49,195 bases of DNA from assembly GCA_016178305.1 (NCBI GenBank), contig JACOTM010000008.1, forward strand, positions 1 to 49,195, written 5' to 3'. Under the pieces are notes generated by a model, which was not told where the DNA came from, ran no database searches, and saw nothing but the letters and a program-made list of their open reading frames with translations. Origin of the DNA: Flavobacteriia bacterium. Its GTDB lineage: Bacteria > Bacteroidota > Bacteroidia > Flavobacteriales_D > Crocinitomicaceae. Of the stretch, positions 10,539 to 42,050 are shown piece after piece. The translations under genes were made by a program, and so were the position numbers. Position 1 is the stretch's first letter. Each line of letters starts with the position of its first letter.

Positions 10539-10573
10539 TCAATAAAAAAGCCCTGTTCGATAGCCCTATATTT

Positions 10574-10604
10574 TTGCAATTTTTATCTTTCTTCCCTATA
10601 TTTG
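10574..10604 (+). promoter_or_regulatory. rocD promoter (-33 TTG, -7 TATATTTG)
   Basis: TTG at 10574-10576 and TATATTTG at 10597-10604 are 20 bases apart, a good Bacteroidota promoter. It leaves a leader of about 80 bases before the ATG at 10691. Confidence 0.6.
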
Positions 10605-10690
10605 CGAAACCAAAGGATGATTTCTCTCCAATACAAACGAGGAAAGGATGCTACACTATCCGTGACTAGTGAAATAAGTAACAATATTTT

Positions 10691-11935: not shown

Positions 11936-11960
11936 ATAATTTTCGAACTATATCGGTTAA

Positions 11961-11991
11961 ATGCCTTTCATTTGTTGAAAGGCATTTTTTT
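11961..11991 (+). terminator. intrinsic terminator of rocD
   Basis: ATGCCTTTCA (11961-11970) pairs perfectly with TGAAAGGCAT (11976-11985), with a five-base loop, then a T run. Confidence 0.88.
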
Positions 11992-12028
11992 GTTTGAATG
12001 CGACTGTTAAAAATCTAAAACTGTTTAT

Positions 12029-12036
12029 TATCTTTG
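12029..12036 (+). promoter_or_regulatory. -7 box before the phosphohexomutase gene
   Basis: TATCTTTG matches TAnnTTTG exactly and lies 25 bases before the TTG start at 12062. No clear -33 TTG. Confidence 0.5.
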
Positions 12037-12061
12037 TTTCAAACAATAAAATTGAACAGAA

Positions 12062-13471
12062 TTGGCAACTAAAATAAAATTTGGAACTGACGGATGGAGA
12101 GCCATTATCGCAGAAGAATTTACAGTAGAAAATGTAATAAGAGTTGCTGCAGCAACAAGTGTTTGGGTTAAAAAGAATTTTGAAAATCCAAGTATTGTAA
12201 TTGGACATGATTGCCGTTTTGCAGGAGAGCTATTTTTAGAGGCTTCAGTTAAAGTTTTTTTGAGTCAAGGCATTCAAGTGAAATTTGCAAAAGGATTTGT
12301 TTCAACTCCGATGGTTTCTTTAGCGGCTGTTCAATTGGGATGTTCATTAGGTGTTGTTTTAACAGCAAGTCACAACCCTCCTTCATACAATGGATACAAA
12401 TTGAAAGGGCATTTTGGTGGACCATTGTCTCCTGAGCAAGTTCAAGAAATTGAAGACATTATACCAGAATCTTTTGAAATTAATTTGGAAAAAATTTCAA
12501 TCGATGAAGCTTTTGCAAATGGTCAAGCTGAAATAGTTGATTTAGAAACGCGCTATGTAGAACATGTTGAAAAGAATTTTGATCTAGATGCAATTAAAAA
12601 ATCAGGTTTAAATTTGGCTTATGATGCTATGTATGGAGCTGGGCAAAATGTATTGAGAAGAATTTTACCAGCAACTCATTTGTTGCATTGCGAATACAAT
12701 CCATCTTTTTATGGGCAAGCACCTGAACCGATCGAGAAAAATTTAAAAGAATTAGAAAATTTCATCAAATCTAATGGTCAAATAGATTGTGCGTTAGCTA
12801 CTGATGGTGATGCAGATAGAATTGGTTTATACAATGGAAAAGGAGAATTTGTAGATTCTCACCACATTATTCTTTTGTTAATGCACTACTTGGTGAAATA
12901 CAAAGGGATGACAGGTAAAGTTGTTACTGCTTTTAGCGCAACTCCTCGAGTAGGTGTTTTAGCAGATCATTATAAGTTGGAAAATGAAATCGTTAAAATC
13001 GGTTTTAAATATATTGCAAGTATGATGGTTACAGAAGATGTATTAATCGGCGGAGAAGAATCTGGAGGAATAGCTGTAAAAGGACATATTCCTGAGCGAG
13101 ATGGTATTTGGATGGGCTTAATTATTTGGGAATTTATGGCGAAATCAGGTAAATCTTTGGATGATTTAATTAAAGAGGTTTATGCTATTGTTGGAGGATT
13201 TAAATTTGAAAGAAACGATTTACATATTACAGAAGAATTAAAACAAAAAATTATTGCTAAATGCAAAGACAATGCTTTTGAATCTTTTGGAGATTATAAG
13301 GTTGATCATGTGAAAACAATTGACGGGTTTAAATATTTCTTTGATGAAAATAGATGGATGATGATTCGTCCTTCAGGTACAGAACCTGTATTAAGAACAT
13401 ATGCAGAAGCTCCAACAATTGAAGAAGTTCGACAAATATTAAAAGAGACAGAAGCTACAATTTGTAAATAA
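12062..13471 (+). CDS. phosphoglucomutase/phosphomannomutase family protein
   Basis: An alpha-D-phosphohexomutase (469 residues) that moves phosphate between C1 and C6 of a hexose. All four domains show their motifs: KFGTDGWRAII at the N-terminus, the phosphoserine loop LTASHNPPSYNGYK (Ser103), the Mg-binding ATDGDADRIG, the sugar-binding GGEESGG and the phosphate-binding RPSGTEPVLRTYAE. Motifs alone do not separate glucose, mannose and glucosamine substrates. The start is a TTG immediately before ATKIKFGTDGW; no ATG lies at a suitable position. Confidence 0.9.
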   Translation: MATKIKFGTDGWRAIIAEEFTVENVIRVAAATSVWVKKNFENPSIVIGHDCRFAGELFLEASVKVFLSQGIQVKFAKGFVSTPMVSLAAVQLGCSLGVVLTASHNPPSYNGYKLKGHFGGPLSPEQVQEIEDIIPESFEINLEKISIDEAFANGQAEIVDLETRYVEHVEKNFDLDAIKKSGLNLAYDAMYGAGQNVLRRILPATHLLHCEYNPSFYGQAPEPIEKNLKELENFIKSNGQIDCALATDGDADRIGLYNGKGEFVDSHHIILLLMHYLVKYKGMTGKVVTAFSATPRVGVLADHYKLENEIVKIGFKYIASMMVTEDVLIGGEESGGIAVKGHIPERDGIWMGLIIWEFMAKSGKSLDDLIKEVYAIVGGFKFERNDLHITEELKQKIIAKCKDNAFESFGDYKVDHVKTIDGFKYFFDENRWMMIRPSGTEPVLRTYAEAPTIEEVRQILKETEATICK

Positions 13472-13479
13472 TTAATTGA

Positions 13480-13521
13480 CTGTAACTTGAAGTATTTGCG
13501 CTAGTTTACAGTTTCTTTTTT
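13480..13521 (+). terminator. probable terminator after the phosphohexomutase gene
   Basis: CTGTAACT pairs with AGTTTACAG with one bulged T, followed by TTTCTTTTTTG. The loop is about 15 bases. Confidence 0.4.
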
Positions 13522-13612
13522 GACTAAGACAAATAGTGATTTAATTCTGCAACATTTTACTTTAATTTGCCATTAAATTTTTTACTTTGGCAATTCATAA
13601 ATATGAATTTAT

Positions 13613-14680
13613 ATGGCAGGTTCTTCATTCGGTCAACTTTTTAGAATAACGACTTTTGGTGAGTCGCATGGTGTTGCGATTGGTGGTGTTATTGATGGTG
13701 TTCCTTCTAACATAAACATCGATTTAGATTTAATTCAAAGAGAATTGGATCGTAGAAAACCTGGGCAATCAACAATTGTGACGCAACGAAAAGAATCAGA
13801 TACTGTAGAGTTTTTATCAGGGATATTTGAAGGTAAAACAACGGGTGCGCCAATTGGATTTGTCATAAAAAATGACGATCAACGGTCAAATGATTACAGC
13901 CATATCAAAGATTCTTACAGGCCTTCTCATGCAGATTTGACTTACCAAGAAAAATATGGGTATCGAGATTATCGAGGAGGTGGGCGCTCAAGTGCTAGAG
14001 AAACAGCATGTAGAGTAGTTGGAGGCGCAATAGCGAAACAAATTTTAAATAAAATAGGGATTGAAATAGTTGCCTATGTTGACCAAGTTGGAGCATTGAA
14101 AATAACAAGTGAGGATGTCTTGGATTTTAATGAAATTGAAAAGAATCCAGTGAGATGCCCCCATAAAGAACTTGCGATTCAGATGGAAGAATTAATTAAA
14201 GTAGTTCGGAAAGAGGGGGATACAATTGGAGGGGCAATCAAATGTATCATAAAGAATGTTCCAATAGGCTTAGGTGAACCAGTTTTTGATCGTTTGAATG
14301 CTGAAATAGCAAAAGCAATAATATCGATTAATGCTGTTAAAGGGATTGAATTTGGTTCTGGTTTTTCATGTATAGAAATGAAAGGCTCAGAACACAATGA
14401 TATCATTCTATCGGATAAATCTACCAGAACAAACAATAGTGGAGGAATTCAAGGCGGTATTTCAAACGGAATGCCAATTGAATTTAGAATTGCCTTTAAG
14501 CCTGTAGCAACAATTGTTCAAGAGCAAATGTCAATTGATAAAGAAGGGAATAAAGTTTTAGTAACAGGTAAAGGAAGACATGATCCATGTGTCGTTCCAA
14601 GAGCTGTTCCAATAGTTGAAGCGATGAGTGCTTTGGTTGTGTTGGATTATTATTTAAGAAATAGAGCAACTCAATTGTAA
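13613..14680 (+). CDS. aroC: chorismate synthase
   Basis: The last shikimate-pathway enzyme, converting EPSP to chorismate with reduced FMN. The 355-residue protein carries all family signatures: GESHG near the N-terminus, [58 protein letters not shown] and the C-terminal [17 protein letters not shown]. The length is normal. It is the only shikimate gene here. A membrane-protein gene follows after 6 bases and is probably cotranscribed. Confidence 0.97.
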
Positions 14681-14686
14681 GACTCA

Positions 14687-16510
14687 ATGAATACAATTAA
14701 ATTTTTTTTAAAAAAAAGTATTTTTTTATATAGCATCATAGTTGTATATATAATAATTTTAGGAAAACAAAGCGATCATTATTTTAAATGGATTCACCCA
14801 GATAGATTAGATCAATTCCATACACCAAATATATTATCAGATGGCAGTGGCTATTATGCTTATTTGCCAGAGTGGTATATTTATCAAAATGATTTTAATT
14901 TTGTCAGTAGTATTTATAAAAAATATAATCAAAATTTATTTGTCAATGGAATTGGAATAGATTCGAAAACAAATAGATACAAGGATAAATATTTTGTAGG
15001 AACAGCAATTTGTTCGACTCCAGTTTTTTTGATAAATCATGTAATTAATAAAATTGTATATGGTGAAGGTGATGGATATTCAAGAAGTTATCAATTAACG
15101 GTTTCAATTAATGCTTTATTCTTTTGGTTCTTAGGTTGTGTTGCAATACTATTATTACTAAGAAAATGGCGTATTGAAAATTTTTGGAAAATAATAATTA
15201 TTGGATTGTTGACTTTTGGTACGAATTTAAATTTTTACACGATTTATTTTCCTTCATTTTCACATGTTTACTCTTTTGCAGCAATAAGTTGGTTTATTTA
15301 TATTGGATATTGTTGGGCGGAACAAAGAGAATTAAGGTTTTTTATAATGATGTGTTTGTTAATAGGTTTAATATTTAGCATTCGACCAACTAATTTATTG
15401 ATCATATTATTTATCCCATTTTTCTTTAAAAATTTTATAGAATTTAAAAGTTCGCTCCTAAATATTTTAAGGAAAAAACCAATGATTTTTTTACTAGGTA
15501 TATTTTGTTTTTTACTTTTTGTTTTTCTTCAACTATACAATGTTTATACTCAAATTGGAGAATGGAAGCTAAATACATATTCCGATGAACATTTTGATTT
15601 TTTATTTAATCCTCAGTTGTTTAATGTTTTATTTAGTTATAAAAAAGGTTTTTTTGTATATGCCCCTGCGATGTTTGTCATTTTCTTCGGAATATATGGA
15701 TATTATAAAGAGAATAAATATCAATTTTTAGGGTGGATATTTGTTTCTTTCGTTTTTTTATATTTAACGTCTGCTTGGTGGTGTTGGTGGTATGGTGGAG
15801 GTTTAGGTATGCGACCATTTATTGATATTTTAAGTTTTTTAATCATCCCTTTTGTAATCTTTATTCAAAAAAGTCAAAAAATGTTTAGAATAATGAGTAT
15901 TCTTTTATTAATTCCATTCATTTATTTTTATCAAATATTACAAATACAATTTAATAAAAATATTATTCATTATGATTTAATGGATCAAACGAATTATTGG
16001 AGAGTTTTTCTTCAAACAGATTTAAGATTTAGCTGGTCTGCTGCTTTTAAAGATGAACAAATTCCTTCGAATGGCAGAAAGTTAGTTCAAAATTTTTATT
16101 TCAATGAAAACAGTTATGAATTTGATAATACAGCTAATGCATTGGTTTTGAATAAAGACCGATTTAGCCCTGTTAATCCTGTTTTTATTTATGTTCCAAC
16201 TAAAAAATATTCGATTCAAAACATAGGATTTACGATTAAAGGAAATTTAATGATTACGAAAGAAAATAGTAATCCATGCATTCATACTTCTTATTATAAG
16301 AAAGGTAAGATTTTAAAAAAATCTGAAACATTTATGGGCTATCGAATTCCTTCTATTAAAACTTTAGTTCCTTTTTCAATAGAATTGTATCCAAAGCTCC
16401 AGTTTGAAGATGTTGATTCTGTTAAAATTGAAATAGGAAGAGGGGAAATTCCAACGAAATATACGGCTTTAAAAATTGCATTATTTCGAATTAAGAATGA
16501 TAGCCAATGA
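14687..16510 (+). CDS. multi-pass membrane protein, possible GT-C-type glycosyltransferase
   Basis: A 607-residue integral membrane protein with about ten to twelve hydrophobic helices between residues 8 and 430, followed by a soluble C-terminal tail of about 180 residues. The first extracytoplasmic loop contains ILSDGSGYYAYLPEWYIYQNDF, similar to the DGxGYYxYLP signature I associate with Bacteroidota membrane glycosyltransferase-like proteins. A loop with WWCWWYGGGLGMRPFID lies near the last helices. The fold class is inferred from topology; substrate unknown. It follows aroC by 6 bases but has no obvious link to the shikimate pathway. Base composition is visibly more T-rich than its neighbours, as expected for a membrane protein. 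Confidence 0.7.
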   Translation: MNTIKFFLKKSIFLYSIIVVYIIILGKQSDHYFKWIHPDRLDQFHTPNILSDGSGYYAYLPEWYIYQNDFNFVSSIYKKYNQNLFVNGIGIDSKTNRYKDKYFVGTAICSTPVFLINHVINKIVYGEGDGYSRSYQLTVSINALFFWFLGCVAILLLLRKWRIENFWKIIIIGLLTFGTNLNFYTIYFPSFSHVYSFAAISWFIYIGYCWAEQRELRFFIMMCLLIGLIFSIRPTNLLIILFIPFFFKNFIEFKSSLLNILRKKPMIFLLGIFCFLLFVFLQLYNVYTQIGEWKLNTYSDEHFDFLFNPQLFNVLFSYKKGFFVYAPAMFVIFFGIYGYYKENKYQFLGWIFVSFVFLYLTSAWWCWWYGGGLGMRPFIDILSFLIIPFVIFIQKSQKMFRIMSILLLIPFIYFYQILQIQFNKNIIHYDLMDQTNYWRVFLQTDLRFSWSAAFKDEQIPSNGRKLVQNFYFNENSYEFDNTANALVLNKDRFSPVNPVFIYVPTKKYSIQNIGFTIKGNLMITKENSNPCIHTSYYKKGKILKKSETFMGYRIPSIKTLVPFSIELYPKLQFEDVDSVKIEIGRGEIPTKYTALKIALFRIKNDSQ

Positions 16511-24871: not shown

Positions 24872-27853
24872 ATGAATAATTTATTGACTTTTATATTTGT
24901 TTTAACTTCTGTTTTTATAGGTTATTCTCAATTAAGTGATTTGGATAAATCATTTTCTCAAATAGTAAAGGAGAAAACGATTTATTTTAATAATCAAAAA
25001 GCTTTATACGGTGAGGGTAAATTGTTAGAGGAAGGAAGCGAATATCAAGAATACCTTAAGTGGTATGAATATTGGAAAACAAGATTAACGCCAGAAATGT
25101 CTGTAAAACAATATTATGAATATTTATCGACGGTTAAAAATACAAAATTAACGAAGTCGGTGGGTAATCTCGATAATTGGACAGAATTAGGACCATTTGA
25201 TAAGCCTATCGCAGGGATTAATGATATTGGAAATGGAGGGAGTGATAGAGGTATTGGAATCATTCATTCGTTAATAGTAAATAAAATAAACCCAAATAAA
25301 CTTTTAGCATTTTCAAGAGCTGGAGGTTTATACTATTCTATGGATAAAGGACAGAATTGGTCAAATGCTGGATCTGATAAATGGTGGAGATCAGGTTGTA
25401 GCGGAATGGCTTTTGCACCAAATAATGAAACTACTTGGTATGGAGTGTCAAACGTTGGTGGTACGCATTATTGGCAATATGCACCTATAGGAGATGGTGG
25501 GGTTTATAGAACAGACAATTCAGGTTTAAATTGGTCTATTATTGGTGATAAATATGATTTCAATACTGACCCGGCTGTTGGTGCATCTTTACTTGTTTTA
25601 GGCTTGAAAATAGACCCATTACATCCAAATATTGGTTATCTAGCTACAAATGCAGGATTGTATAAAAGTAACAATATTAATGATGTTACACCTTCAAATG
25701 TTGTATGGGTAAAAGTTTTATCCGATTATATTGAAGATATAGAATTTAAAACCGATGCTTCAAATTTATTGATTGTTTCACGTAAAAATTCAGCAGGTTT
25801 ATGTGTTATTTCTACATCAGTTGATCAAGGTGTGTCTTTTGTTGATTTAATTAGTCAACCTTTTTTATCGTCAACAAATTTAGTAGTAATAGAAGTTTCA
25901 GATAATAATCCAAATTTATTATTTATCAAAGATGCTGCTAGTATTACAACCCTTAGAATATATGACTTTGTGACTCAAGTTTGGACCACAAAATATACGT
26001 TTAATAATCAAGTCGGTTGGGGACATGGATTGGGTGTGTCTAATTTTAATGCCAATATAATTTATGTTTCAAATTATGACAGGTTTATGAAATCGACGGA
26101 TGGTGGAACTACTTTTAATACGGTAGAACTCTCAAATGCATCGACACGTTATCATGCAGATGTTGAGGATATTGTTACGCCTCCAGCATCATGTACAACG
26201 TGTTCAAATGAAGTTTATGTTACAACGCATGGAGGTGTCAATTATTCAAATGATAATACAGCAACACTTTCAACTAGAAGTAGTGGGTTAGGGATTGCAA
26301 AGATTCAAGGTACAAGTAATTCAGTTTTGAATCCAGAAAAGATTTCTTTAGGTTTAGATCATGACGGGTCTGTTTTGAGTAATGGGATATTTTCTCAAAA
26401 TTGGACTCCTGAGTGGAAAACGATTTATGGAGGAGATGGTGGTAGTACAACTATAGATAACTCAAATTCAAACGATATTTGGTGTTCTAGAAATTCAAAT
26501 TCCCCAGCTTCATATTCTACTAATATGGGAAGTAGTTTTGTTGGTACAGATTTTCCATTGACAAACGATTTTTATGTAGCCGTATATCAAAATAAACAAT
26601 TTTCAAATATTGTATATACAAAAGGAAGGTCATCAATCGATAATGCCTATGAGGAAATATACAGATCTTCTAATTACGGTATAGGAGCATCTAGTGTTGA
26701 ACAGATTTCAGATTTTAAAACCTTATCAGGATTGCCAACTGGTCAATGGATTTGGGGTGTCTATCCAGCTGAATCGAATCCAAATTTTTTATACACATTT
26801 GTCAATTCAAATTCACCTAATTGGATAACTCATTTTTATAAAAATTCAAATATTTTAAGCGATGCGACAAGCGTAAAAAATAGCTGGGTTGAATTACCTT
26901 TTCCAAGTAGTTATATTATGCAAGCAGTAGATACTAAAGATGCTAATATAGTTTACTTTAGTGAAGGAGGAACTATTTGGACTCCTGATTTTAAATTGTA
27001 TAAAATTAATTGTACAACTCCATCTACAGCTTTAAGTACTCAAATTGATATTGCAGGAGATTTACCTGAAATCGCAATTAATTCTTTTGTTTTAGAAAAA
27101 GGTACAAATGGAGGAATGTATGTGTCTTCAGAATTAGGAGTTTATTATACCGATAATTTCAATATTATAAGTACTTCATCAACGGCTATTAATTATCATT
27201 GGATTAAGATAGGAAGTAATTTACCAAATATTCCTTTGGGAAAATTGGAAATAAATTATATAGCTAATAAAATAAGAGTTAGTACGCCTGGTCGAGGTAT
27301 TTGGGAACATGATTTATTTTGTCCGAATACTACATCAGGAAATTATTCAGGAACTCAATCAACTAGTAATTATTATCAAGTATATAATGAAATTAATTCA
27401 ACAGCAACGATAGCAAGTAATACTTCAATTACTTATAGAGCTGGTACTTATATTCTTTTGAATCCTGGATTTAATTCAACTCCGAGTAATAATGGAACTG
27501 CTTTTTTTGAAGGATATATTCATCCATGTATGTATGTTGGAAGTTCTCCTAATTTGAAAAAAGGAAATAATACTGAAAATATTGAAAATTTATCACAGAA
27601 TGAAAATTTGAAGATAAATTCTGAAATTACAATTTTCCCAAATCCTTCTGAAAGTAATTTTACGCTGAATATTGAGAATGATGAAAAATATGATATATTC
27701 ATTTATAACAATATGGGTACAGAAGTTTATAAATTATCAAATGTTGAAGTGAAAAACTTTGAAATTGATGGTGCAAAGCTTCAAAGTGGAATTTATATTG
27801 TTAGATGTGTAAATAATCATGATTTCAAATCTATAACATTTATTAAGAAGTAA
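24872..27853 (+). CDS. T9SS-secreted beta-propeller (sortilin/BNR-repeat) protein
   Basis: A 993-residue protein with a signal peptide (about 1-19, ending GYSQ). The body (about 130-800) has many BNR/Asp-box-like repeats: YSMDKGQNW, YRTDNSGLNW, KSTDGGTTF, YRSSNYG. These are typical of sortilin-like and glycosidase-like propellers. Residues about 820-890 (SITYRAGTYILLNPGFN) resemble the coat-hanger-type stack before sorting domains in Bacteroidota. The last 80 residues (ITIFPNPSESNFTLNIEN ... IFIYNNMGTEVYKL ... LQSGIYIVRC) are a type A T9SS sorting domain, so the protein is exported through the type IX system and cleaved at the surface. No catalytic residues can be assigned. Confidence 0.88.
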   Translation: MNNLLTFIFVLTSVFIGYSQLSDLDKSFSQIVKEKTIYFNNQKALYGEGKLLEEGSEYQEYLKWYEYWKTRLTPEMSVKQYYEYLSTVKNTKLTKSVGNLDNWTELGPFDKPIAGINDIGNGGSDRGIGIIHSLIVNKINPNKLLAFSRAGGLYYSMDKGQNWSNAGSDKWWRSGCSGMAFAPNNETTWYGVSNVGGTHYWQYAPIGDGGVYRTDNSGLNWSIIGDKYDFNTDPAVGASLLVLGLKIDPLHPNIGYLATNAGLYKSNNINDVTPSNVVWVKVLSDYIEDIEFKTDASNLLIVSRKNSAGLCVISTSVDQGVSFVDLISQPFLSSTNLVVIEVSDNNPNLLFIKDAASITTLRIYDFVTQVWTTKYTFNNQVGWGHGLGVSNFNANIIYVSNYDRFMKSTDGGTTFNTVELSNASTRYHADVEDIVTPPASCTTCSNEVYVTTHGGVNYSNDNTATLSTRSSGLGIAKIQGTSNSVLNPEKISLGLDHDGSVLSNGIFSQNWTPEWKTIYGGDGGSTTIDNSNSNDIWCSRNSNSPASYSTNMGSSFVGTDFPLTNDFYVAVYQNKQFSNIVYTKGRSSIDNAYEEIYRSSNYGIGASSVEQISDFKTLSGLPTGQWIWGVYPAESNPNFLYTFVNSNSPNWITHFYKNSNILSDATSVKNSWVELPFPSSYIMQAVDTKDANIVYFSEGGTIWTPDFKLYKINCTTPSTALSTQIDIAGDLPEIAINSFVLEKGTNGGMYVSSELGVYYTDNFNIISTSSTAINYHWIKIGSNLPNIPLGKLEINYIANKIRVSTPGRGIWEHDLFCPNTTSGNYSGTQSTSNYYQVYNEINSTATIASNTSITYRAGTYILLNPGFNSTPSNNGTAFFEGYIHPCMYVGSSPNLKKGNNTENIENLSQNENLKINSEITIFPNPSESNFTLNIENDEKYDIFIYNNMGTEVYKLSNVEVKNFEIDGAKLQSGIYIVRCVNNHDFKSITFIKK

Positions 27854-27986: not shown

Positions 27987-28296
27987 GTTCGATTAAAATT
28001 CCATCCCTAAATTTTAATTAAATTTGAAAGAACAAGATGTGTTTTTGGAGGTTTAAAGTGATAGTTTGAGTTTGTCAAAAGAAACTAAATTAAGAAGACA
28101 CAACGAATACGTTTTGAATTTAATTGAAAAGCTTTTAGTATATTTCACCTATAAAAAGCGATTTACTACCCAAGAGCCTCTTGAAATAGCACGCTATTCT
28201 TTCAGGTTTTTTAGTCGTAATTTACTGTTTATAGGCGATCTGAGTGCAAAATTTTTATCGAACTCAGATTTTTACATCAAAATAAAAATAGACACG

Positions 28297-29256
28297 ATGA
28301 AATTTTTTTCTTTTTTACTGATAATAATCTTTGCGGTTGCTTGTAAAAACAAAGAGCAAATTCAATTAGAAAATTTCATTAAACAACTACCTAATGATTC
28401 GCTAATTACGATTAATACATACGATGGAAGTAATCAAGTCGTTCACCCAGATGTATTATTTCGAAATAACAAATTGTTAATGGCAATAACACCTTATCCA
28501 TTTTATGAGGATTCTTTAGAAAATCCATGCTTATACTTAAGTAATAATGGATTAAGATTTAATGAATTTTCAAAAAACATAAATCCTTTAGTTCAAACTC
28601 CAAAAATTGATCATAATTGTGACCCAGATATTTTATATGATAATCAAGGAAATTTATATCTTTTTTATTTAGAGACTCTAAGGCCTTTTTCAAATAGAAT
28701 CATTCGACTTAAACGAAATAAAGGTTGTTCAAAATTTAGTAAAAAAATAGTGCTGAATTATAACCTCATGAAAAATGAGCAAATTAAATTATCACCTGCT
28801 ATAACTCAGAATATGAGCGATCAGTCTTATTATTTGTTTTTTGTAAATTGGGATAGGAAATCGTATAGAAATAACATTGAAATGATTAAATCAAACAAAA
28901 TAGATGTATTCAGTAAAAAAAATACAAAAAATGTAAATGTAAAAATGCCTCAAAATTTTACTCCTTGGCACTTAGATGTTATTTCTTCAAATGATAAATA
29001 TTATTTATTAATCAATGGTTTTTTTGGCTTACAAAAAAATGATGAATATGGTTTGTTTTTAGTTGAAAGTAATGATTTGAAAACATGGAGAAATGGTAAA
29101 ATTATTATGAAAGATGCTGACGTTCCTGATGAACAGATTAATTATATCTATAGATCTACAGGTTTGATTACAAATGATACTTTAGCATTGTGGTATTCTT
29201 ATTTCACTCATTCAGATAAAGCAAAATTAGGGTTTAAAAAACTAGCACTCAAATAG
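28297..29256 (+). CDS. lipoprotein with five-bladed propeller-like domain
   Basis: A 319-residue protein with a lipoprotein signal peptide (lipobox FAVAC, Cys16). The body has repeated segments resembling the GH43/GH32-type five-bladed beta-propeller: VHPDVLFRNNKLLMAITPYP, ENPCLYLSNNGLRF, HNCDPDILYDNQGNLYLFY, LSPAI, WHLDVISSNDKYYLLI and LFLVESNDLKTW. The evenly placed acidic residues fit that fold, but I cannot identify a catalytic triad with confidence. The frame is open upstream to 28066, but the signal peptide fixes the start at ATG 28297. It converges with the amidotransferase gene (12 bases between stops). Confidence 0.65.
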   Translation: MKFFSFLLIIIFAVACKNKEQIQLENFIKQLPNDSLITINTYDGSNQVVHPDVLFRNNKLLMAITPYPFYEDSLENPCLYLSNNGLRFNEFSKNINPLVQTPKIDHNCDPDILYDNQGNLYLFYLETLRPFSNRIIRLKRNKGCSKFSKKIVLNYNLMKNEQIKLSPAITQNMSDQSYYLFFVNWDRKSYRNNIEMIKSNKIDVFSKKNTKNVNVKMPQNFTPWHLDVISSNDKYYLLINGFFGLQKNDEYGLFLVESNDLKTWRNGKIIMKDADVPDEQINYIYRSTGLITNDTLALWYSYFTHSDKAKLGFKKLALK

Positions 29257-30396: not shown

Positions 30397-32355
30397 ATGA
30401 GTAATCCATTCAAACATAAATTAAGTGTTATCATTGTAAATTACAATGTTGAATACTTTTTGGAACAATGTTTAAATTCAGTGCGTAAAGCATTAGACAA
30501 AGTTTCAGGAGAAGTGTTTGTAGTGGATAATAATTCCATTGATGGTTCTGTGGAAATGGTTGCTCAGAAATTTCCTGAGGTGAATTTAATTGCAAATAAA
30601 GACAACAGAGGTTTTTCGAAAGCAAATAATCAAGCTATATTACGTTCAAATTCAGAATACATTTTATTATTAAATCCTGATACTGTTGTTGAGGAAGATA
30701 CTTTTCAAAAAGTGATAGAATTCATGGATAAACACACTGAAGCTGGAGGTTTAGGGGTTCGTATGTTGGATGGGAAAGGGAATTTTTTGCCAGAATCGAA
30801 AAGAGGCTTACCAACACCAGCGGTTGCATTTTACAAGATTTTTGGTTTCTCACGCTTGTTTCCAAAATCAAAAAGATTTGGACAATATCATTTAGGGAAT
30901 TTAAGTGAATTTGAAACCAATGAAATAGATGTATTGAGTGGCGCTTTCATGTTCATGCGAAAAGAGGCGTTAGACAAGGTTGGATTATTGGATGAGGCAT
31001 TTTTCATGTATGGTGAAGATATTGATTTGTCCTACAGAATTCAATTAGGGGGCTATAAAAATTATTACTTTCCAGAAACCAGAATTATTCATTACAAAGG
31101 AGAGAGCACAAAGAAAAGTTCGGTTAATTATGTTTTTGTTTTTTACCGTGCAATGGTCATTTTTGCCGAAAAACATTTCTCTCAAAAAAATGCAAAATTA
31201 TTTTCATTTTTAATTAATTGTGCGATTTATTTTAGAGCTTCTTTGGCAATTTCAGCACGTTTTATTCAAAAAATTACGCTGCCAATCATTGATGCTACGT
31301 TTATTATTGGAGGATTGTTTGCATTGACTAATTATTGGAAAATGGCAAATATTGAATTTCCACAAAATATCATAAATTACAGCATTCCAGCTTATTCAAT
31401 CGTTTGGATTTTTAGTGTGCTGTTTTTAGAAGGGTACGATTCGCCACTTAAATTACAGCGTTTCATAAAAGCACCATTAATTGGAACTTTGTTGATTTTG
31501 GTAATATATGGTTTGTTGCCTAAAGAATGGCAATTTTCAAGATTGTATATTTTAACGGGAACAATATGGATTTCAGTTTATTATATCCTTTCAAGGATTT
31601 ATCTACATTTTGCTTTTGGTCAACGATTTGGCTTGTTGTCGAATAGAAATAAAAAGTTTGTTATAATTGGTTCAAAAGAAGAAGCGATAAGAGTTAGTCA
31701 AATTATTCAACAGACAAATTCAAAAATAGAGAGTATTCAATTTGTATCAGCAAATGAAGAAAAAGACAGTTTTTTTATTGGTTCTTTAAATCAATTAGAC
31801 CAAGTAATTTATATTCATAAAATGGATGAGGTAATCTTTTGTGCAAAGGATAATTCAGCGCAAACGATAATTAATTGGATGTCTAAAATTAGTTCACCCG
31901 ATATTGATTTTAAAATAGCTCAACCCGATAGTGTTTATTTGATTGGGAGTAATTCTGTAGATACAGCAGGAGATTTATATGTGCTAAATATTAATTCAAT
32001 TTCAACGAAATCAAACATTCGAAATAAGAGAACGTTTGACTTCATTGTATCTTCAATAATAATCGTTATTTGTCCTATTTTGTTGTTCTATTTCAAAAAT
32101 AAAAAACAATTTTTAAAGAATATTTTACAAGTTTTTGTCGGTAAAAAGACAATAGTTGGTTATCAATTTAATCAAGATGTAAGCGATGTTCAACTACCGA
32201 AAATTAAGCCTGGAATTCTTTCTCCTGCGGATGTGTTTAGAAATCAAGGAGAAACGGTTGTGGATAAATTAAACTTAATATATGCCCGTGATTATTCTAT
32301 TCGAAAAGATATTCGCATATTAAGGAACGCGTGGAAAAAAATGGATCGAAAATAG
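30397..32355 (+). CDS. GT2 glycosyltransferase fused to a decayed polyprenyl sugar-phosphotransferase
   Basis: The 652-residue protein joins two modules. Residues 1-250 are a family-2 glycosyltransferase of the rhamnosyltransferase type: VIIVNYNVEYFLEQCLNSVR, VVDNNSIDGS, NKDNRGFSKANN, LLLNPDT and FFMYGEDIDLSYR. Residues 270-405 contain hydrophobic helices. Residues 419-530 begin KFVIIGSKEEAIRVSQII, like the nucleotide-binding-type domain of WcaJ/EpsL-type phosphotransferases. Residues 544-566 (KRTFDFIVSSIIIVICPILL) fit the membrane hairpin of those enzymes. Residues 573-648 match the end of their catalytic domain (NILQVFVGKKTIVGY, LPKIKPGILSP, LIYARDYSIRKDIRIL). The middle, which holds the catalytic Asp-Glu, is missing. 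The GT2 part is probably active; the rest is probably an inactive membrane anchor. Confidence 0.8.
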   Translation: MSNPFKHKLSVIIVNYNVEYFLEQCLNSVRKALDKVSGEVFVVDNNSIDGSVEMVAQKFPEVNLIANKDNRGFSKANNQAILRSNSEYILLLNPDTVVEEDTFQKVIEFMDKHTEAGGLGVRMLDGKGNFLPESKRGLPTPAVAFYKIFGFSRLFPKSKRFGQYHLGNLSEFETNEIDVLSGAFMFMRKEALDKVGLLDEAFFMYGEDIDLSYRIQLGGYKNYYFPETRIIHYKGESTKKSSVNYVFVFYRAMVIFAEKHFSQKNAKLFSFLINCAIYFRASLAISARFIQKITLPIIDATFIIGGLFALTNYWKMANIEFPQNIINYSIPAYSIVWIFSVLFLEGYDSPLKLQRFIKAPLIGTLLILVIYGLLPKEWQFSRLYILTGTIWISVYYILSRIYLHFAFGQRFGLLSNRNKKFVIIGSKEEAIRVSQIIQQTNSKIESIQFVSANEEKDSFFIGSLNQLDQVIYIHKMDEVIFCAKDNSAQTIINWMSKISSPDIDFKIAQPDSVYLIGSNSVDTAGDLYVLNINSISTKSNIRNKRTFDFIVSSIIIVICPILLFYFKNKKQFLKNILQVFVGKKTIVGYQFNQDVSDVQLPKIKPGILSPADVFRNQGETVVDKLNLIYARDYSIRKDIRILRNAWKKMDRK

Positions 32356-33896: not shown

Positions 33897-36242
33897 ATGA
33901 AGAATTTAATTTTAATACTATTTATTGTTTTAAATGGGTCATTCATTTTTGCACAAAAAAATGAAATGCAAATAAGAAAAGATGCTAGAACTCTTTCAGA
34001 ATTTGATTTAGTAGCAGAATGTTCTCAATTAATAGGGGATGGATATTTGTATTATGCAGAAATATTAACGGATAAATTATTAGAATTTCAACCTGAAAGT
34101 TCAAATTACAATTATAGAAAAGGATTTATTATATTAAATTCGAGAAAAAATGCAGCAGAAGCAATTCCTTATTTGGAAAAAGCTATTTTGAAAACACATA
34201 AAAATTATGATTTATTCTCAACGTCAGAACAAAACGCTGCATTGGATGCTTTTTATCATTTAGCTAAAGCTTACCATGCTGATGGTCAAATTGATAAAGC
34301 GATATTGAATTACAATCGATTTATAGAAGTTACGCAAAAAAAATCACCTTCAATTGGAGACGCTCAACTTTGTTTGATTCAATGCGAAGTTGCTAAAAAA
34401 TTGATGGAAAATCCTAAAAATGTCAAAGTTATTAATCTTGGGGAAGAGGTAAATACTTCTTTCCCAGAATATTCTCCGTTTATTTCTTTGGATGGATCGG
34501 CTTTGTATTTTACATCGAGAAGATCTTGGGAAGAGCATTCAACAGAACAGTTTAAAGACCCAACTTTGAATGAATACCATGAAGATATTTATGTGTGTTA
34601 TAAAGATGAAAAAGGTGAATGGTCAAGTCCAACACGTTTAGATTTTTGTGAAGATGAAAGAAATGAAGCGTCTATTTCTGTGAGTCCAGATGAAAGAAGA
34701 GTTTATATTTACCAAGACAATAAAGGTGGAGGAGATATTTTTTATTCTGATTTTAAACTAAATTCATTTACAGAGATTAATGATTTGAAATATTCCGGAG
34801 TGAATACAGCAAGTTGGGAAACGCATTGTACCATGACAATTGATGGTTTGAATATGTATTTTGTATCCAATAGACCTGGAGGCTTAGGAGGAAGAGACAT
34901 TTATAGAATTGTAAAAATGCCTGATGGATCATGGAGTTTACCTCAAAATTTAGGACCAACGATTAATACCCCTTATGATGAAGACTGCCCTTTTATCGCA
35001 GCTGATAATAAAACACTTTATTATTCTAGTAATGGACCTGAAAGTATGGGGTTATTTGATATTTTTATGACAATTAGAGATGAGGATAATGTTTGGCAAA
35101 CACCTATAAATGTTGGTTATCCAATAAATTCTACGGGGGATGATGTTTTTTATACAACAACAGTAGATGGGTATAAAGGATATTTGACTTCGGATCGAAA
35201 AGGAAGTTTTGGAGAAAAAGATATTTATGAAATACAAAATGATTATTTAGGAACGCCAAATGTAACGGTATTAAAAGGGAAAATCCGAACAGTAAGAAAT
35301 ACTCCAATTCCGCAAGATATTGTAGTGACATTGAAAAACATCAGTTATGCTGAAAAACCAGAAGTAAGTGTTCATCCTCGCTTACGAGATGGTTCATTTT
35401 TCAGTTCTTTAGAGCCATGTTCGGAATATGAAATGATATTTTATTCAAAAGAAGGAACCTTAGAATTGTATCGAGAGAAGTTTTCAACAAGTTGTGAAAA
35501 ACGGTATGAAGAAGTTCGGAAAGAAGTCATGTTGAAATCAGATGAATTGAAATTCATTCCTATTATGGTTTATGGTTTAAGTGGTGTCATTGAAGATAAG
35601 AAAACACATCAACAAATAGATGGAGCTCACGTTGAAATTGTTGCGTATTCTGCAGGTACAGTTATTGATGTAAAAGATACTGATAAAACGGGTTATTTTG
35701 TATCAAATGTTGCGAATGATTATTATTTTGGAGATTCTTTAAAATTAAAATTTAAAGTTTCTAAAGAGGGATATTTAACACAAACATTTGATTTTACATA
35801 TTTACTTGATTCAAATTCAAAAATTGAAGTAAAATATGAATTGGAAAGAAATGAATTGGGAATGGATCTGGCGAAAGTTTTAGATTTAAAACCAATTTAT
35901 TTTGATTTAGGAAAATTTAATATTCGTGCAGATGCTAAAATCGAATTGGATAAAATTGTCAAAGTGATGAATGATAATCCTACAATTCATGTTGAATTAG
36001 GCTCGCATACCGATTGTAGAAGTTCAGCAACATTTAATTTAGCTTTGTCTGATAAGAGAGCAAAAACTTCGGCAGATTATATCAAAAAAAGAATTTCGCA
36101 TCCAGAAAGGATAACTGGTAAAGGTTATGGTGAAACGAAGTTAGTGAACCAATGTGAATGTGAGGGAGAGAAAGTTACACCATGTTCGGAAGCAGAACAT
36201 CAAGCGAATAGAAGAACAGAGTTTAATGTAGTCAAAAATTAG
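33897..36242 (+). CDS. PorE-like OmpA-family protein (TPR, PD40 propeller, regulatory-like domain, OmpA)
   Basis: A 781-residue envelope protein. Order of domains: signal peptide (about 1-19), TPR-like helical region (about 30-165), five PD40 propeller repeats (about 185-445; FPEYSPFISLDGSALYFTSR, then SVSPDERRVYIY, GLNMYFVSNRPGGLGGRDIY, DNKTLYYSSNGPESMG, YKGYLTSDRKGSFGEKDIY), two carboxypeptidase-regulatory-like segments (about 455-540 and 560-640), and an OmpA peptidoglycan-binding domain (661-781; IYFDLGKFNIRADAKIELD, GSHTDCRSSATFNLALSDKRA). This is the architecture of PorE, the T9SS-associated anchor of Porphyromonas. There is no lipobox here. A similar gene follows at 36582. Confidence 0.85.
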   Translation: MKNLILILFIVLNGSFIFAQKNEMQIRKDARTLSEFDLVAECSQLIGDGYLYYAEILTDKLLEFQPESSNYNYRKGFIILNSRKNAAEAIPYLEKAILKTHKNYDLFSTSEQNAALDAFYHLAKAYHADGQIDKAILNYNRFIEVTQKKSPSIGDAQLCLIQCEVAKKLMENPKNVKVINLGEEVNTSFPEYSPFISLDGSALYFTSRRSWEEHSTEQFKDPTLNEYHEDIYVCYKDEKGEWSSPTRLDFCEDERNEASISVSPDERRVYIYQDNKGGGDIFYSDFKLNSFTEINDLKYSGVNTASWETHCTMTIDGLNMYFVSNRPGGLGGRDIYRIVKMPDGSWSLPQNLGPTINTPYDEDCPFIAADNKTLYYSSNGPESMGLFDIFMTIRDEDNVWQTPINVGYPINSTGDDVFYTTTVDGYKGYLTSDRKGSFGEKDIYEIQNDYLGTPNVTVLKGKIRTVRNTPIPQDIVVTLKNISYAEKPEVSVHPRLRDGSFFSSLEPCSEYEMIFYSKEGTLELYREKFSTSCEKRYEEVRKEVMLKSDELKFIPIMVYGLSGVIEDKKTHQQIDGAHVEIVAYSAGTVIDVKDTDKTGYFVSNVANDYYFGDSLKLKFKVSKEGYLTQTFDFTYLLDSNSKIEVKYELERNELGMDLAKVLDLKPIYFDLGKFNIRADAKIELDKIVKVMNDNPTIHVELGSHTDCRSSATFNLALSDKRAKTSADYIKKRISHPERITGKGYGETKLVNQCECEGEKVTPCSEAEHQANRRTEFNVVKN

Positions 36243-36581: not shown

Positions 36582-38744
36582 ATGAAAAAAATATTATTTA
36601 CACTGTTTGTTGCAATTTCGTTTGTTGCATTTAATCAAAAAACAGAGTTAGAAGTTCGTAAAATGGCAAATACTTATTCAGAACAAGAATTAGTTTTTGA
36701 AAGTTCTACGATGTTATCCAATAATCAATTGTTTTTAGCTGAAATCCTTGTAGATAAATTACTAACGATAAAGCCTGAAAGTTCAAATTATAATTATAGA
36801 AAAGGTTATATTTTACTATACTCGAAGTCTGATTATTTAGCTGCTATGGTTTGTTTCAAAAAAGCCATTGAGAACACCAGTGTAAATTATGATTTGTATT
36901 CAGTTAATGAAAAAAATGCTTCAATTGATGCTTTTTACCATCTTGGTAAATGCTATCATTTGAATTTTGAATTAGAAAAAGCGAAACAATATTATAATCA
37001 ATTTTTAATTACTTCAAATGTAAAATCAGATTTAATTTATAAAGCGCATACATCTGTTCTTCAATGTGATGTAGCAAAAGCTTTAATGGCTCGCCCCAAA
37101 AAAGTTACCGTAAAAAATATAGGGGCTCAAATAAATACAATTTATCCAGAATATTCTCCTGTAGTTTCTTTAGATGGATCGGCAATATATTTTACTTCCA
37201 GAAGACCATGGGCAAATGGAGAAACAGATGGTATGAGAGATGGATTGAACAATGATTATCCAGAGGATATTTACGTTAGTTACAGTGATGAAAAGGGAGG
37301 TTGGACGACTCCGATTCGTTTAGATTTTTGTGAAGCAGAAAGAAATGAGGCGACAATTGCTGTAAGTTCTGATGAAAAACGAATTTACGTATATCAAGAT
37401 AGCAAAGGAGGAGGAGATTTATTCTATTCTGATTTTGGAACCAATTCATTCACGGAAATTAAAGATATTAATTACTCAGGTGTGAATTCAGAGAGTTGGG
37501 AAACGCACTGTACAATGACAACTGATGGACTAAATATGTATTTTGTATCGGATAGACCAGGAGGAATGGGAGGAAGAGATATTTACAGAATTGTGAAATT
37601 ACCAGATGGGTCATGGAGTTTACCTCAAAACTTAGGTCCTAATATTAATACTTCGAATGATGAAGATTCACCATTTATAGCGAGTGATAATAAAACGTTA
37701 TATTATTCAAGTAATGGACCTCGAAGTATGGGTGGTTTTGATATTTTTGTTTCTATCAGAGATGAAGATAATGTGTGGGGAGAATCATTAAATCTGGGGT
37801 ATCCAATTAATTCTGTTGGAGATGATATTTTTTATACAGCAACTATTGATGGATTAAAAGGATATATGACCTCTTTTAGGAAAAATGGATATGGTGAAAA
37901 AGACATCTATGAAATTCAGAATGATTATATAGGTAGAAATAATATAGCAGCATTAAAAGGGCATATCATTACAGTTGGTGGTAAACCACTACCTTTGGAT
38001 ATTAAAATTACTGTTTCTTGTGTAAATTGTGAAGAAAGTATGACTAATTCCACTTCGCCACGTTTAAGAGATGGAACCTTTTTTAGTTCATTATTAGAGC
38101 ATTGTAGAGATTATGAATATGTGATTACATCAGAATCAGGTCAAAAAGAACTATTCAGGGAAGTTGTTACTACAAAATGTGAAAATGAATATCATGAAAT
38201 TTATAGAGAAATTCTTTTAGATGTTGACCAAATGAAAGTAATTTCAGCTACAACACCTCAAAAAGAAACTCAAACTAAAGTTGACTCATCACTTATTGCT
38301 AGAAAAGATGAATTAAATTTAAAGGAAACAGGTGTCAAAGAATTGTTAAATAATAATAACAATTTGAAAGATTTTGAAATGATACACTATTTTGGTTATA
38401 ATGCCAATGTATTGACTGTTAACAGCGGAGATTTAAATGTTTTTTTAAAACAAATTGAAGCTCAAATGTTAAAAGGAGGAAGAAAACAAATGGTTATTAT
38501 TATTGAAACTTCGGCGTCTAAAGTTCCTACGAAAACTTATAAATCAAACGAACAATTATCAGAATTACGGGCGAAGAACATTCAAAAAGAATTATTAAAT
38601 TATATTGCTCAAAATCCAAATTTAAAAGGAAAAGTTTCAGTTAAGATAAACAAAATGATTGTCGATGGTCCAGCTTATGAAAATGATGCTTTAAATAGAA
38701 AAAAATACCAAAAATTTCAATTTGTATATTTGAAAACAGAATAA
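36582..38744 (+). CDS. PorE-like paralog with degenerate OmpA domain
   Basis: A 720-residue paralog of the preceding gene. It matches the TPR and PD40 region closely (for example PESSNYNYRKGYILL, DGSALYFTSRR counterpart DGSAIYFTSRR, GRDIYRIVKLPDGSWSLPQNLGP). It keeps the first regulatory-like segment but has lost the second. The C-terminal domain (about 602-720) still fits OmpA topology (YFGYNANVLTVNSGDLNVFL, SELRAKNIQKELL), but the usual TD motif is replaced by ETSASKVPTKT and no Asp remains there. It should fold like OmpA but may no longer bind diaminopimelate. It could pair with the upstream protein (inference). Confidence 0.82.
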   Translation: MKKILFTLFVAISFVAFNQKTELEVRKMANTYSEQELVFESSTMLSNNQLFLAEILVDKLLTIKPESSNYNYRKGYILLYSKSDYLAAMVCFKKAIENTSVNYDLYSVNEKNASIDAFYHLGKCYHLNFELEKAKQYYNQFLITSNVKSDLIYKAHTSVLQCDVAKALMARPKKVTVKNIGAQINTIYPEYSPVVSLDGSAIYFTSRRPWANGETDGMRDGLNNDYPEDIYVSYSDEKGGWTTPIRLDFCEAERNEATIAVSSDEKRIYVYQDSKGGGDLFYSDFGTNSFTEIKDINYSGVNSESWETHCTMTTDGLNMYFVSDRPGGMGGRDIYRIVKLPDGSWSLPQNLGPNINTSNDEDSPFIASDNKTLYYSSNGPRSMGGFDIFVSIRDEDNVWGESLNLGYPINSVGDDIFYTATIDGLKGYMTSFRKNGYGEKDIYEIQNDYIGRNNIAALKGHIITVGGKPLPLDIKITVSCVNCEESMTNSTSPRLRDGTFFSSLLEHCRDYEYVITSESGQKELFREVVTTKCENEYHEIYREILLDVDQMKVISATTPQKETQTKVDSSLIARKDELNLKETGVKELLNNNNNLKDFEMIHYFGYNANVLTVNSGDLNVFLKQIEAQMLKGGRKQMVIIIETSASKVPTKTYKSNEQLSELRAKNIQKELLNYIAQNPNLKGKVSVKINKMIVDGPAYENDALNRKKYQKFQFVYLKTE

Positions 38745-40233: not shown

Positions 40234-40971
40234 CTAATTGTCACAAATTAATTTCCCAACACCATAAATATTTGATTGAACACTAGATGGAGAACCTTTG
40301 TAATAGAGGTCTCCATTTTTTTTGATTTCATATTTAAACTTTGAAAAGCTCGTGTTAATTTTCACAGGTGCAGATGAATTTGTAATAACTCCAATTGAAT
40401 CAACAATGTCAAGATTATAAGTATTGCAAAAACCATTTCCATTAATGGTAAACATACCGAAATTTACTTTTCCTGAAAGTGTAAAATCACCATTTCCTCC
40501 TGTAACCAATGCTTTGATTACTTTAGAATCGATATTGAGATTTACAGAACCAGCACCATCGCATACAGACAATGCAAAATATTCAAATTTTAATTGACCA
40601 ATATTTGTAAGGTTTTCAGTTCCTGTATATTCAATGTTTTGTAAAGATGTAAAGTGAATTTCAGCAGTTACTTTTTTAGAGTAATTTCTTAAAAAATTAC
40701 ATCTGTTTTTATTCTTGATTTCAATAATATTGTCAGCATAATCAATTTTTATTTCATTCAATAAATTTTTGCCACCTTTTAGTATTACTTTATTTGTTGA
40801 ATCTTGAATTAAGATATATTTTACATTCTCATATAATTTTAATTTATCGAAGTTTTCGAATGTTAGTTCTTTTAATGTATCAATTCCAATAAATTTAAAA
40901 CATTTTCTGTCTTCCGGTTTTTTACAGGCAAGTAAGAGTAAACTTATTGTTAATAATGTCAAATATTTCAT
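40234..40971 (-). CDS. DUF2807-like lipoprotein (beta-helix head domain)
   Basis: A 245-residue protein with a lipoprotein signal peptide (lipobox LLLAC, Cys16). The body is built of short beta-strand repeats (NIEYTGTENLTNIGQLKF, SVCDGAGSVNLNIDSK, LVTGGNGDFTLSGKVN) like DUF2807/GIN-domain proteins of Bacteroidota. Its function is unknown. Its start (40971) overlaps the stop of the upstream PagL-like gene by one base, so the two are translationally coupled. Confidence 0.8.
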   Translation of the reverse strand: MKYLTLLTISLLLLACKKPEDRKCFKFIGIDTLKELTFENFDKLKLYENVKYILIQDSTNKVILKGGKNLLNEIKIDYADNIIEIKNKNRCNFLRNYSKKVTAEIHFTSLQNIEYTGTENLTNIGQLKFEYFALSVCDGAGSVNLNIDSKVIKALVTGGNGDFTLSGKVNFGMFTINGNGFCNTYNLDIVDSIGVITNSSAPVKINTSFSKFKYEIKKNGDLYYKGSPSSVQSNIYGVGKLICDN

Positions 40972-42050
40972 TATTTTCCGTATTTAAAAGTGTAACCAAT
41001 TCCAGATTCAAAATAATCGGCACTTGCAAAATGTGATTTTAGCACAAAGTTAAAAAACACACCGTTTTTCATGAAATACCGCATCCCAACTCGATGGTAT
41101 AAGAATGATTCAGGCTGATATTTGTCACGTAAATAAACCCCCATTCCTAAAACAAAATGAACTCGATCTAATGGAAGTAAATAACCTGTAAAAAAACCTA
41201 CTTGTAGAATATCTAATTGCGTTTTTGAAATGTCGGGTTTGTATGCTAATGTTGATTGTTTCGAAAAAACATCAAAAGCAAATTCAATTCCGACCTTTGG
41301 TTTGAAAAACTTTCGTGCAAAAAGACTAAGTGCATAAATCGGATATTTTCGACCTTCTGTTGGATATGTTTCTTTTGCAGAACAAATCCCAGTAACTCCA
41401 AAATTCCATTTTTGAAATGGAGAAGTATATTCTTTTATTGTGTCAAAAGCAGATGATTGTTTTATTGTATATCCGTAGCCAATACTGAAAAAAGGTAAAT
41501 TGATTCCAAGATTTGGTGTTTTTGATGCTGCATTTGAACAATGTGTAATGTCAATTCCAATTGAGAAATGGTGTTTTTTAAAATCAAATCTATTCATGAG
41601 ACCAATACAAATTAAGGCATTAATATGAGATCCTATTGCTGTATTTTTTGGGTCGATAATAGGGTCGTAATGCTTTGTTCCATAAGCAAATCCATTACCC
41701 AGTTTTGCAGAGAAAATATATTTGGAACGTTTCACAAATGGAAATTCAATAAATTGATAAAAACCGTAAAAATTTCCTAAAATATTTTTATTTCCAACTG
41801 AAGCTAAAAACGATGTGAAGCCAATATAAGGTTTGCGGTAATCTAAATGCCATTTTTTAGAGCCATTTGGTTGAATAAATAATGATGTTTCTTGTGCAAA
41901 AGCATCTTTTATTGCTAAATGTTCCATTGTGTTGTGGTGAGCAGCTAAAAAACCAATTTTTGTACGTGATTCTATACCCCAAGTATATTTGTTTTGCCCC
42001 AAAGCATTATAGAATATTAGAATATAAAAAAATAGAAAAATTGTTTTCAT
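40971..42050 (-). CDS. PagL-like acyloxyacyl hydrolase (lipid A 3-O-deacylase family)
   Basis: A 359-residue outer-membrane beta-barrel protein with a signal peptide (about 1-18). The key motif DITHCSNAASKTPNLGINLPFFSIGYGY corresponds to the PagL signature with catalytic His-Ser and the Asn (HxSN...PNxG...). PagL removes an acyl chain from lipid A; the same fold is widespread in Bacteroidota, where the activity is mostly untested. The protein is longer than PagL (about 150-180) because the barrel is followed by more strands. A -7 box (TATATTTG on the minus strand, 42063-42056) lies 5 bases before the ATG. It is cotranscribed with the DUF2807-like lipoprotein. Confidence 0.75.
   Translation of the reverse strand: MKTIFLFFYILIFYNALGQNKYTWGIESRTKIGFLAAHHNTMEHLAIKDAFAQETSLFIQPNGSKKWHLDYRKPYIGFTSFLASVGNKNILGNFYGFYQFIEFPFVKRSKYIFSAKLGNGFAYGTKHYDPIIDPKNTAIGSHINALICIGLMNRFDFKKHHFSIGIDITHCSNAASKTPNLGINLPFFSIGYGYTIKQSSAFDTIKEYTSPFQKWNFGVTGICSAKETYPTEGRKYPIYALSLFARKFFKPKVGIEFAFDVFSKQSTLAYKPDISKTQLDILQVGFFTGYLLPLDRVHFVLGMGVYLRDKYQPESFLYHRVGMRYFMKNGVFFNFVLKSHFASADYFESGIGYTFKYGK

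Follow-up and report, generated by a model that had tools for sequence, protein, structure and literature searches.

A GT2 domain fused to a predicted large-PGT pseudoenzyme recurs across Bacteroidota genomes

Parts of the fusion protein and the genes around it

The window (the whole stretch of DNA analysed here, 49,195 nucleotides from a Flavobacteriia bacterium) carries on its forward strand an open reading frame at 30397..32355, exactly where the original prediction had placed it. Based on Pfam, NCBIfam and profile-profile comparison, its 652-aa product is a GT2 domain fused to a large-PGT pseudoenzyme. The GT2 catalytic domain occupies residues 1-262 (30397..31182, forward strand) and was delimited from Pfam, a structure match and ortholog motif columns; the motifs NPD (93-95), GED (206-208) and HYKGEST (232-238) lie within it. 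PF00535 matched residues 10-195 with 85.6 bits (cut-off 23.3), and the modelled fold was close to 6p61 (Z 25.3) and to the fucosyltransferase WrtF (9omh-9omn; Z up to 24.1 over 224 residues). With a PF00535 score over the cut-off, a GT-A fold and conserved acidic motifs, this half is a GT2 domain, and it is presumably active. The rhamnosyltransferase model TIGR01556 and WrtF share the same GT-A fold and motifs, but the solved WrtF chains, with 279 residues, have no extension like that of the fusion protein.

The extension is made up of four parts, all on the forward strand. A linker helix and four membrane helices of the large-PGT type (residues 263-412, 31183..31632) were assigned from the model and a profile match to WbaP. 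The Rossmann-like domain of the CoA_binding_3 type (residues 413-517, 31633..31947) was recognised with hhalign, by its similarity to 3nkl (Z 9.7) and by PF13727, which was detected in 15 of 24 orthologs but gave no match at E 0.1 in the protein of the window itself. A re-entrant membrane helix (residues 538-568, 32008..32100), with K544-R545-x-x-D548 and the kink proline P560, follows from the model and ortholog columns. The remaining residues, 569-652 (32101..32352), are a remnant of the PGT catalytic domain according to profile alignment, ortholog columns and a match to PglC. This remnant comprises what is left of the dyad helix, where Q571-F572 replaces Asp-Glu, the stretches VGKKTIVGY and LPKIKPGIL, and Y629 and D638; the motifs quoted in the original prediction sit at residues 581-589, 600-608 and 629-642. 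The front part of NCBIfam TIGR03025 (polyprenyl glycosylphosphotransferase) matched residues 299-564 (E 1.2e-20). The match to Bac_transf (PF02397) was limited to residues 580-647, equivalent to profile positions 98-175 of 179, and its score of 16.7 bits was lower than the gathering cut-off of 27. Three further PF02397 genes of the host genome scored above that cut-off.

An AlphaFold2 model of the full protein built from 73 sequences (mean pLDDT 89.3) showed a GT-A-like domain, four long helices (263-316, 323-343, 353-373 and 382-411), a Rossmann-like domain, a long helix (538-565) and a small C-terminal unit. Fold searches with the whole model were filled by matches to the GT2 part, so residues 291-652 were folded separately (pLDDT 89.6). 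The best fold match of this piece was WbaP (Foldseek E 3.9e-9); superposition on WbaP gave Z 11.1 with an rmsd of 15.0 A over 314 residues, a poor global fit that leaves the arrangement of the domains uncertain. From the hairpin onwards, the model resembled PglC (8g1n; Z 9.3 over 112 residues), and a profile of 24 orthologs matched solved WbaP structures (8t53, 9s7s and others) with E 6e-17 to 4e-16. The structural similarity to phosphotransferases that the original prediction relied on is present in the models, which display the architecture of a large PGT: a four-helix bundle, a Rossmann-like domain and a re-entrant helix.

Among the neighbours scanned in the window, from 18997 onwards, are genes for a glutamine amidotransferase, a RidA-type protein, an E2 acyltransferase and two PD40-type proteins, one of them with an OmpA domain. 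The latter two are adjacent PD40/TPR proteins of 781 aa (33897-36242, with the OmpA domain) and 720 aa (36582-38744), alike enough to share one cluster. Elsewhere in the window, 24872-27853 encodes a protein of 993 aa that carries a C-terminal sorting domain for type IX secretion (PF18962, E 3.2e-9), 28066-29256 is a 396-aa frame with a weak GH43 match below the cut-off, whose TTG start may lie too far upstream, and 40971-42050 encodes a 359-aa protein that matched a PagL-like lipid A deacylase (E 4e-8).

We compared the surroundings of the gene in 80 named loci and the window; many loci are cut, and the counts are lower bounds. The E2 family was found in at least 36 of them, with 31 members at +1 and 3 at +2, and a RecR-like family (named by eye from sequence) in at least 31; the latter is absent from the window. 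In this set, the frequent neighbours are housekeeping genes, and they do not reveal a pathway. Ninety loci were examined for a nearby active large PGT. It was visible in 7 of the 23 loci in which the FAH gene and 1.5 kb beyond it were readable, directly after FAH in five and on the other side of the GT2 gene in two; this set is biased, with seven loci fetched for other reasons, two of these after a nearby PGT had already been seen. In the named loci alone, an active PGT was nearby in 2 of 16 (L093 and L096), a minority pattern. The active large PGT of the host genome itself (contig C37, L001) adjoins an exonuclease-like frame (by eye).

A missing catalytic segment shared by orthologs

To place the PGT half among its relatives, we aligned 20 active large PGTs from related genomes, in which 44 columns were invariant. 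The fusion profile matched this set with E 8.1e-30 and probability 99.8 (hhalign profile-profile comparison), and the C-terminal halves alone still matched with E 1.8e-21. The alignment contained a single large gap, between the hairpin and the stretch VFVGKKTIVGY. The span from Asp548 to Gly582 is 34 residues in the fusion protein versus 95 in the active PGT of its own genome, which means that about 61 residues are missing. The missing segment holds 16 of the 44 invariant columns, and HMMER places the break in the solved WbaP chain at roughly residues 306 to 378. The original prediction had the catalytic domain jump from the hairpin straight to its last third with loss of the Asp-Glu dyad. This is borne out, with one refinement: the second half of the dyad-bearing helix is retained, with Gln571-Phe572 at the positions of the catalytic Asp-Glu. 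Downstream, the VGPRP invariant in the 20 active relatives reads VGYQF at 587-591. Active PGTs share K277, D281, Y438 and D447 at places corresponding to K544, D548, Y629 and D638 of the fusion protein.

The Asp-Glu dyad, the VGPRP motif and a PF02397 score above the gathering cut-off, which mark active monotopic PGTs, are all absent. As read from the sequence, the PGT half cannot be active by known PGT chemistry; Pfam, TIGR03025 and the hhalign comparison bear out the proposal of a GT2 enzyme joined to a phosphotransferase unable to act. The protein has the fused GT and PGT halves of a bifunctional PGT but not a catalytically competent PGT half, because the dyad and the segment preceding it are missing. 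It is a GT2 protein by membership and a large PGT by descent, not by function.

The order of parts is that of the large monotopic PGTs WbaP and WcaJ (TIGR03025, TIGR03023, PF13727 plus PF02397), with which the fusion protein shares the four-helix bundle, the Rossmann-like domain, the re-entrant helix and the last third of the catalytic domain; it differs from them by the loss of the dyad and of some 61 residues ahead of the dyad helix, and by the GT2 domain added in front. The small PGT PglC (8g1n) has the re-entrant helix and the C-terminal part in common with it, but PglC works as an enzyme and its catalytic core is complete, as described in a passage of PMC10942596. Fused PGTs are already a recognised class (Bi-PGTs), and in the short descriptions that PMC10942596 and PMC10653937 give of it, a functional domain is likewise fused to a monotopic PGT. 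Unlike that class, the PGT half here lacks the dyad in every full-length member examined. In the open-access papers searched, we found no description of a dead-PGT/GT2 fusion kept across a phylum.

Orthologs with the same deletion, which the original prediction had proposed to look for as a sign of selective retention, are present across the phylum. In a class sample, 176 of 197 genomes had a match at E 1e-60, one each except for one genome with two; in a phylum sample, 183 of 247 genomes had a match at E 1e-30. All 59 relatives had a match at E 0.001, some of which were merely other GT2 genes or fragments. Among the class matches listed at E 1e-60, all but eight extended beyond residue 600. 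Cultivated species whose named loci hold a full-length copy include Salibacter halophilus (L160) and Adhaeribacter terrigena (L153). The deletion is, by these sequence comparisons, common across the phylum and neither local nor private to this genome. A simple local mutation was considered and ruled out, since orthologs throughout the phylum carry the same deletion. Among the matches listed from the phylum genomes and the best 80 named loci, we found no intact GT2-PGT fusion, and no ortholog examined had an intact catalytic segment.

For column counts we aligned 176 ortholog proteins from three groups (87, 79 and 10), 173 of them distinct; the counts omit seven short forms (L173-L176 and L190-L192), L185, L186 and the split L022, and also the eight short-match class forms, which were found later. 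One analysis of the named loci used 72 of 80; L112 fell outside the cluster and seven had frames of fewer than 600 aa by the start rule. Asp-Glu occurred at the dyad columns in none of the 172 orthologs that have residues there: column 571 was Asp in 2 of 173 sequences and column 572 was Glu in none, and one sequence, presumably L134 with its frame ending in the hairpin, had no residue at this place. Sixteen sequences carried 'DE' somewhere within 561-601, none of them at the dyad columns. L108 gave one match to the pattern Asp-Glu-x-Pro, and the column count gives no Asp-Glu at the dyad position. The PGT remnant of L134 (the same place as L239) lies in a different frame from the rest of the gene, by either a real frame change or a sequencing error. 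L240 and L242 are split by a frame change, L241 stops at a contig end, and for L243-L246, listed with stop codons, we found open frames of 647-658 aa that include a remnant.

The stretch between hairpin and remnant, columns 560-579, was 20 residues long in 140 of 173 aligned orthologs. In the outgroup sequences L181-L184 it was longer, 42 residues in L181 and 53 in L182-L184; in the ortholog alignment these four had no dyad despite the longer stretch, and from their sequences they are possible intermediates of the deletion.

The motifs of the GT2 half were almost fixed: N93, P94 and D95 were kept in 172 of 173 sequences (one gap), and G206, E207, D208, H232, G235, E236 and S237 in all 173. In the dead half, K544 was kept in 165 of the 173, D548 in 166, P560 in 159, Y629 in 172 and D638 in 171. 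The remnant as a whole was less conserved than GT2 (mean majority fraction 0.45 versus 0.75). Pairwise dN/dS was 0.05-0.28 for the remnant in nine of nine pairs and 0.02-0.07 for GT2; these values are rough, since dS approached saturation in most pairs; L009/L010 and, to a lesser degree, L008/L011 were exceptions. Where it is kept, the dead half appears from these ratios to be under purifying selection among close relatives. The word 'decayed' used in the original prediction fits lineages with reduced forms but not the relatives of the window, whose remnant shows these ratios. Taken together, the alignments indicate that across the phylum an intact GT2 domain is often fused to a conserved membrane enzyme whose active site was lost long ago, and they suggest a present role for the dead half in holding or regulating the living one.

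Reduced forms in some lineages

The eight short-match class forms were scanned with domain profiles built from the full-length set. In five of them (L231, L232, L234, L237 and L238; 520-567 aa), GT2 and the four-helix part were followed by the Rossmann domain, directly behind which the frame closed; re-entrant helix and PGT remnant have been deleted naturally in these forms. The longer L236 (642 aa) contained the same three parts, and neither a re-entrant helix nor a remnant could be recognised in it. Both were still present in L233 and L235, the remnant weakly recognised. As a control, none of 220 shuffled C-terminal parts, some of them very short, scored below 0.01.

Forms of about 400 aa were reduced further. 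In four of five (L173, L174, L176 and L190), GT2 was followed by the C-terminal half of the Rossmann domain, and the domain-profile scan detected neither a four-helix part nor a re-entrant helix or remnant. In L175, the fifth, the Rossmann domain had no match at 0.01, which counts against this interpretation of the short forms. By position, L173 and L174 are orthologs: they are followed by genes for an E2 acyltransferase, an exonuclease and an FAH-type protein (by eye), as in the full-length loci. A few kb from the GT2 gene of L173, at 10482-15249 of that locus, lie genes for Wzc-like and Wza-like proteins (both by eye) and for an active large PGT. Two proteins of family f77, L185 and L186 (about 610 aa), had GT2 and the four-helix part, the rest being unrecognisable as Rossmann domain or PGT, and L191 and L192 (283 and 295 aa) consisted of GT2 alone.

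As far as these sequences tell, the dead half is useful, yet dispensable in some lineages. The part that would contact lipid, the re-entrant helix with the remnant, appears to be dispensable in some lineages and to be outlived by the Rossmann domain. The gene family amounts to a natural dissection of a large PGT, in which the parts for chemistry may be told from those for lipid contact, dimerisation or sensing; it is the lineages shedding one part after another that make the dissection possible.

Role of the dead half and a candidate pathway

Our preferred explanation, to which we give about an even chance, is that an active GT2 works on the scaffold of a retained ancient large-PGT pseudoenzyme, beside an Und-PP-linked sugar. 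The dead half would have kept the non-chemical functions of a large PGT, namely the membrane bundle and dimerisation through the Rossmann domain, and its re-entrant helix, where present, would contact undecaprenyl lipids. A separate active PGT would make the undecaprenyl-diphosphate-linked sugar, the dead half would hold the GT2 site next to that sugar, and GT2, which probably acts on a lipid-linked acceptor, would add the next one. Several observations weigh against this explanation: the poor global fit to WbaP, the lower conservation of the remnant compared with GT2, the loss of the lipid-contact part in some lineages and the minority of named loci with an active PGT nearby. Passages of PMC10942596 describe the Rossmann domain of WbaP as forming most of the dimer interface and as binding uridine nucleotides, with UMP, UDP and UTP stabilising it, and report that UMP inhibits WbaP.

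The main alternative, which we consider unlikely on balance, is that the dead half is chiefly a regulator: its Rossmann domain would sense UMP/UDP or pair with the active large PGT of the cell and so couple addition of the second sugar to that of the first. Such a role would suit the properties reported for the WbaP domain, and the Rossmann domain is the piece kept longest, terminating five forms and persisting as its C-terminal half in four of the five forms of about 400 aa. The five class forms without re-entrant helix and remnant make the preferred explanation less likely and regulation more so. However, only half of the domain survives in the forms of about 400 aa, L175 had no match at 0.01, and L185, L186, L191 and L192 had no Rossmann match; an active PGT gene also lies nearby in a minority of loci (2 of 16 named ones).

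The original prediction offered the decayed enzyme as an anchor of GT2 to the membrane or to the undecaprenyl-linked acceptor. The reduced forms weigh on both parts of that proposal: the four forms of about 400 aa without the four-helix part argue against a simple anchor, and the five forms without the remnant argue against a remnant essential for docking. Neither a pure membrane anchor nor lipid docking accounts for everything. That the dead half is solely a membrane anchor is a reading we find distinctly improbable. As an anchor would require, four membrane helices are predicted in the protein of the window and recur in L185, L186 and the five forms terminated by the Rossmann domain, but L173, L174, L176 and L190 have no recognisable membrane parts and have still kept the C-terminal half of the Rossmann domain, and anchoring has no need of a conserved Rossmann domain or of Y629 (172/173) and D638 (171/173). 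A chance fusion with the C-terminal half decaying without function would agree with the lower conservation of the dead half and with the repeated loss of its parts in some lineages, but is very improbable given that 172 aligned sequences from across the phylum agree in boundaries and fixed residues and that dN/dS is 0.05-0.28 in close relatives; for the relatives of the window it is already disfavoured.

Its wide distribution, a copy number of usually one (at the threshold used) and a location mostly among housekeeping genes make the gene a candidate, open to testing, for a conserved step of envelope or protein glycan synthesis to which no enzyme has been assigned. One such step would be addition of the deoxyhexose in the hexose-deoxyhexose core of the general protein O-glycan of Bacteroidota, an assignment we regard as a long shot. 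According to passages of a 2025 review (PMC12871550), Bacteroidota share this core, and the machinery for it is unidentified and lies outside the known locus; a passage of a P. gingivalis study (PMC8729774) calls the core enzymes of T. forsythia unknown. The phylum-wide spread of the gene and its housekeeping neighbours fit machinery outside the known locus. The GT2 part is weakly rhamnosyltransferase-like, with 59.3 bits against TIGR01556, but this is far below the curated cut-off of 200.55. RmlC was found in 193 of 197 class genomes, which is consistency rather than evidence; of the 20 class genomes listed as lacking the gene at E 1e-60, 19 had RmlC as well, and being present with and without the gene, it does not discriminate. 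Some genera lack the gene, and a role in LPS core or exopolysaccharide synthesis is equally possible, with exopolysaccharide-type genes lying near L173.

A more specific version, also with little chance of being right, has the gene add the core deoxyhexose while the pseudo-PGT half clamps the undecaprenyl-linked first sugar and gates the reaction by sensing the released uridine nucleotide. If true, it would mean a phylum-wide pseudoenzyme serving as both substrate clamp and sensor.

A link of the gene to rhamnose synthesis was also tried and rejected: RmlD and RmlC each matched 193 of 197 class genomes and did not separate those that have the gene from those that lack it. Of the 193 genomes matching the RmlD model, 45 scored above the cut-off; the RmlD-like protein of most genomes is thus divergent.
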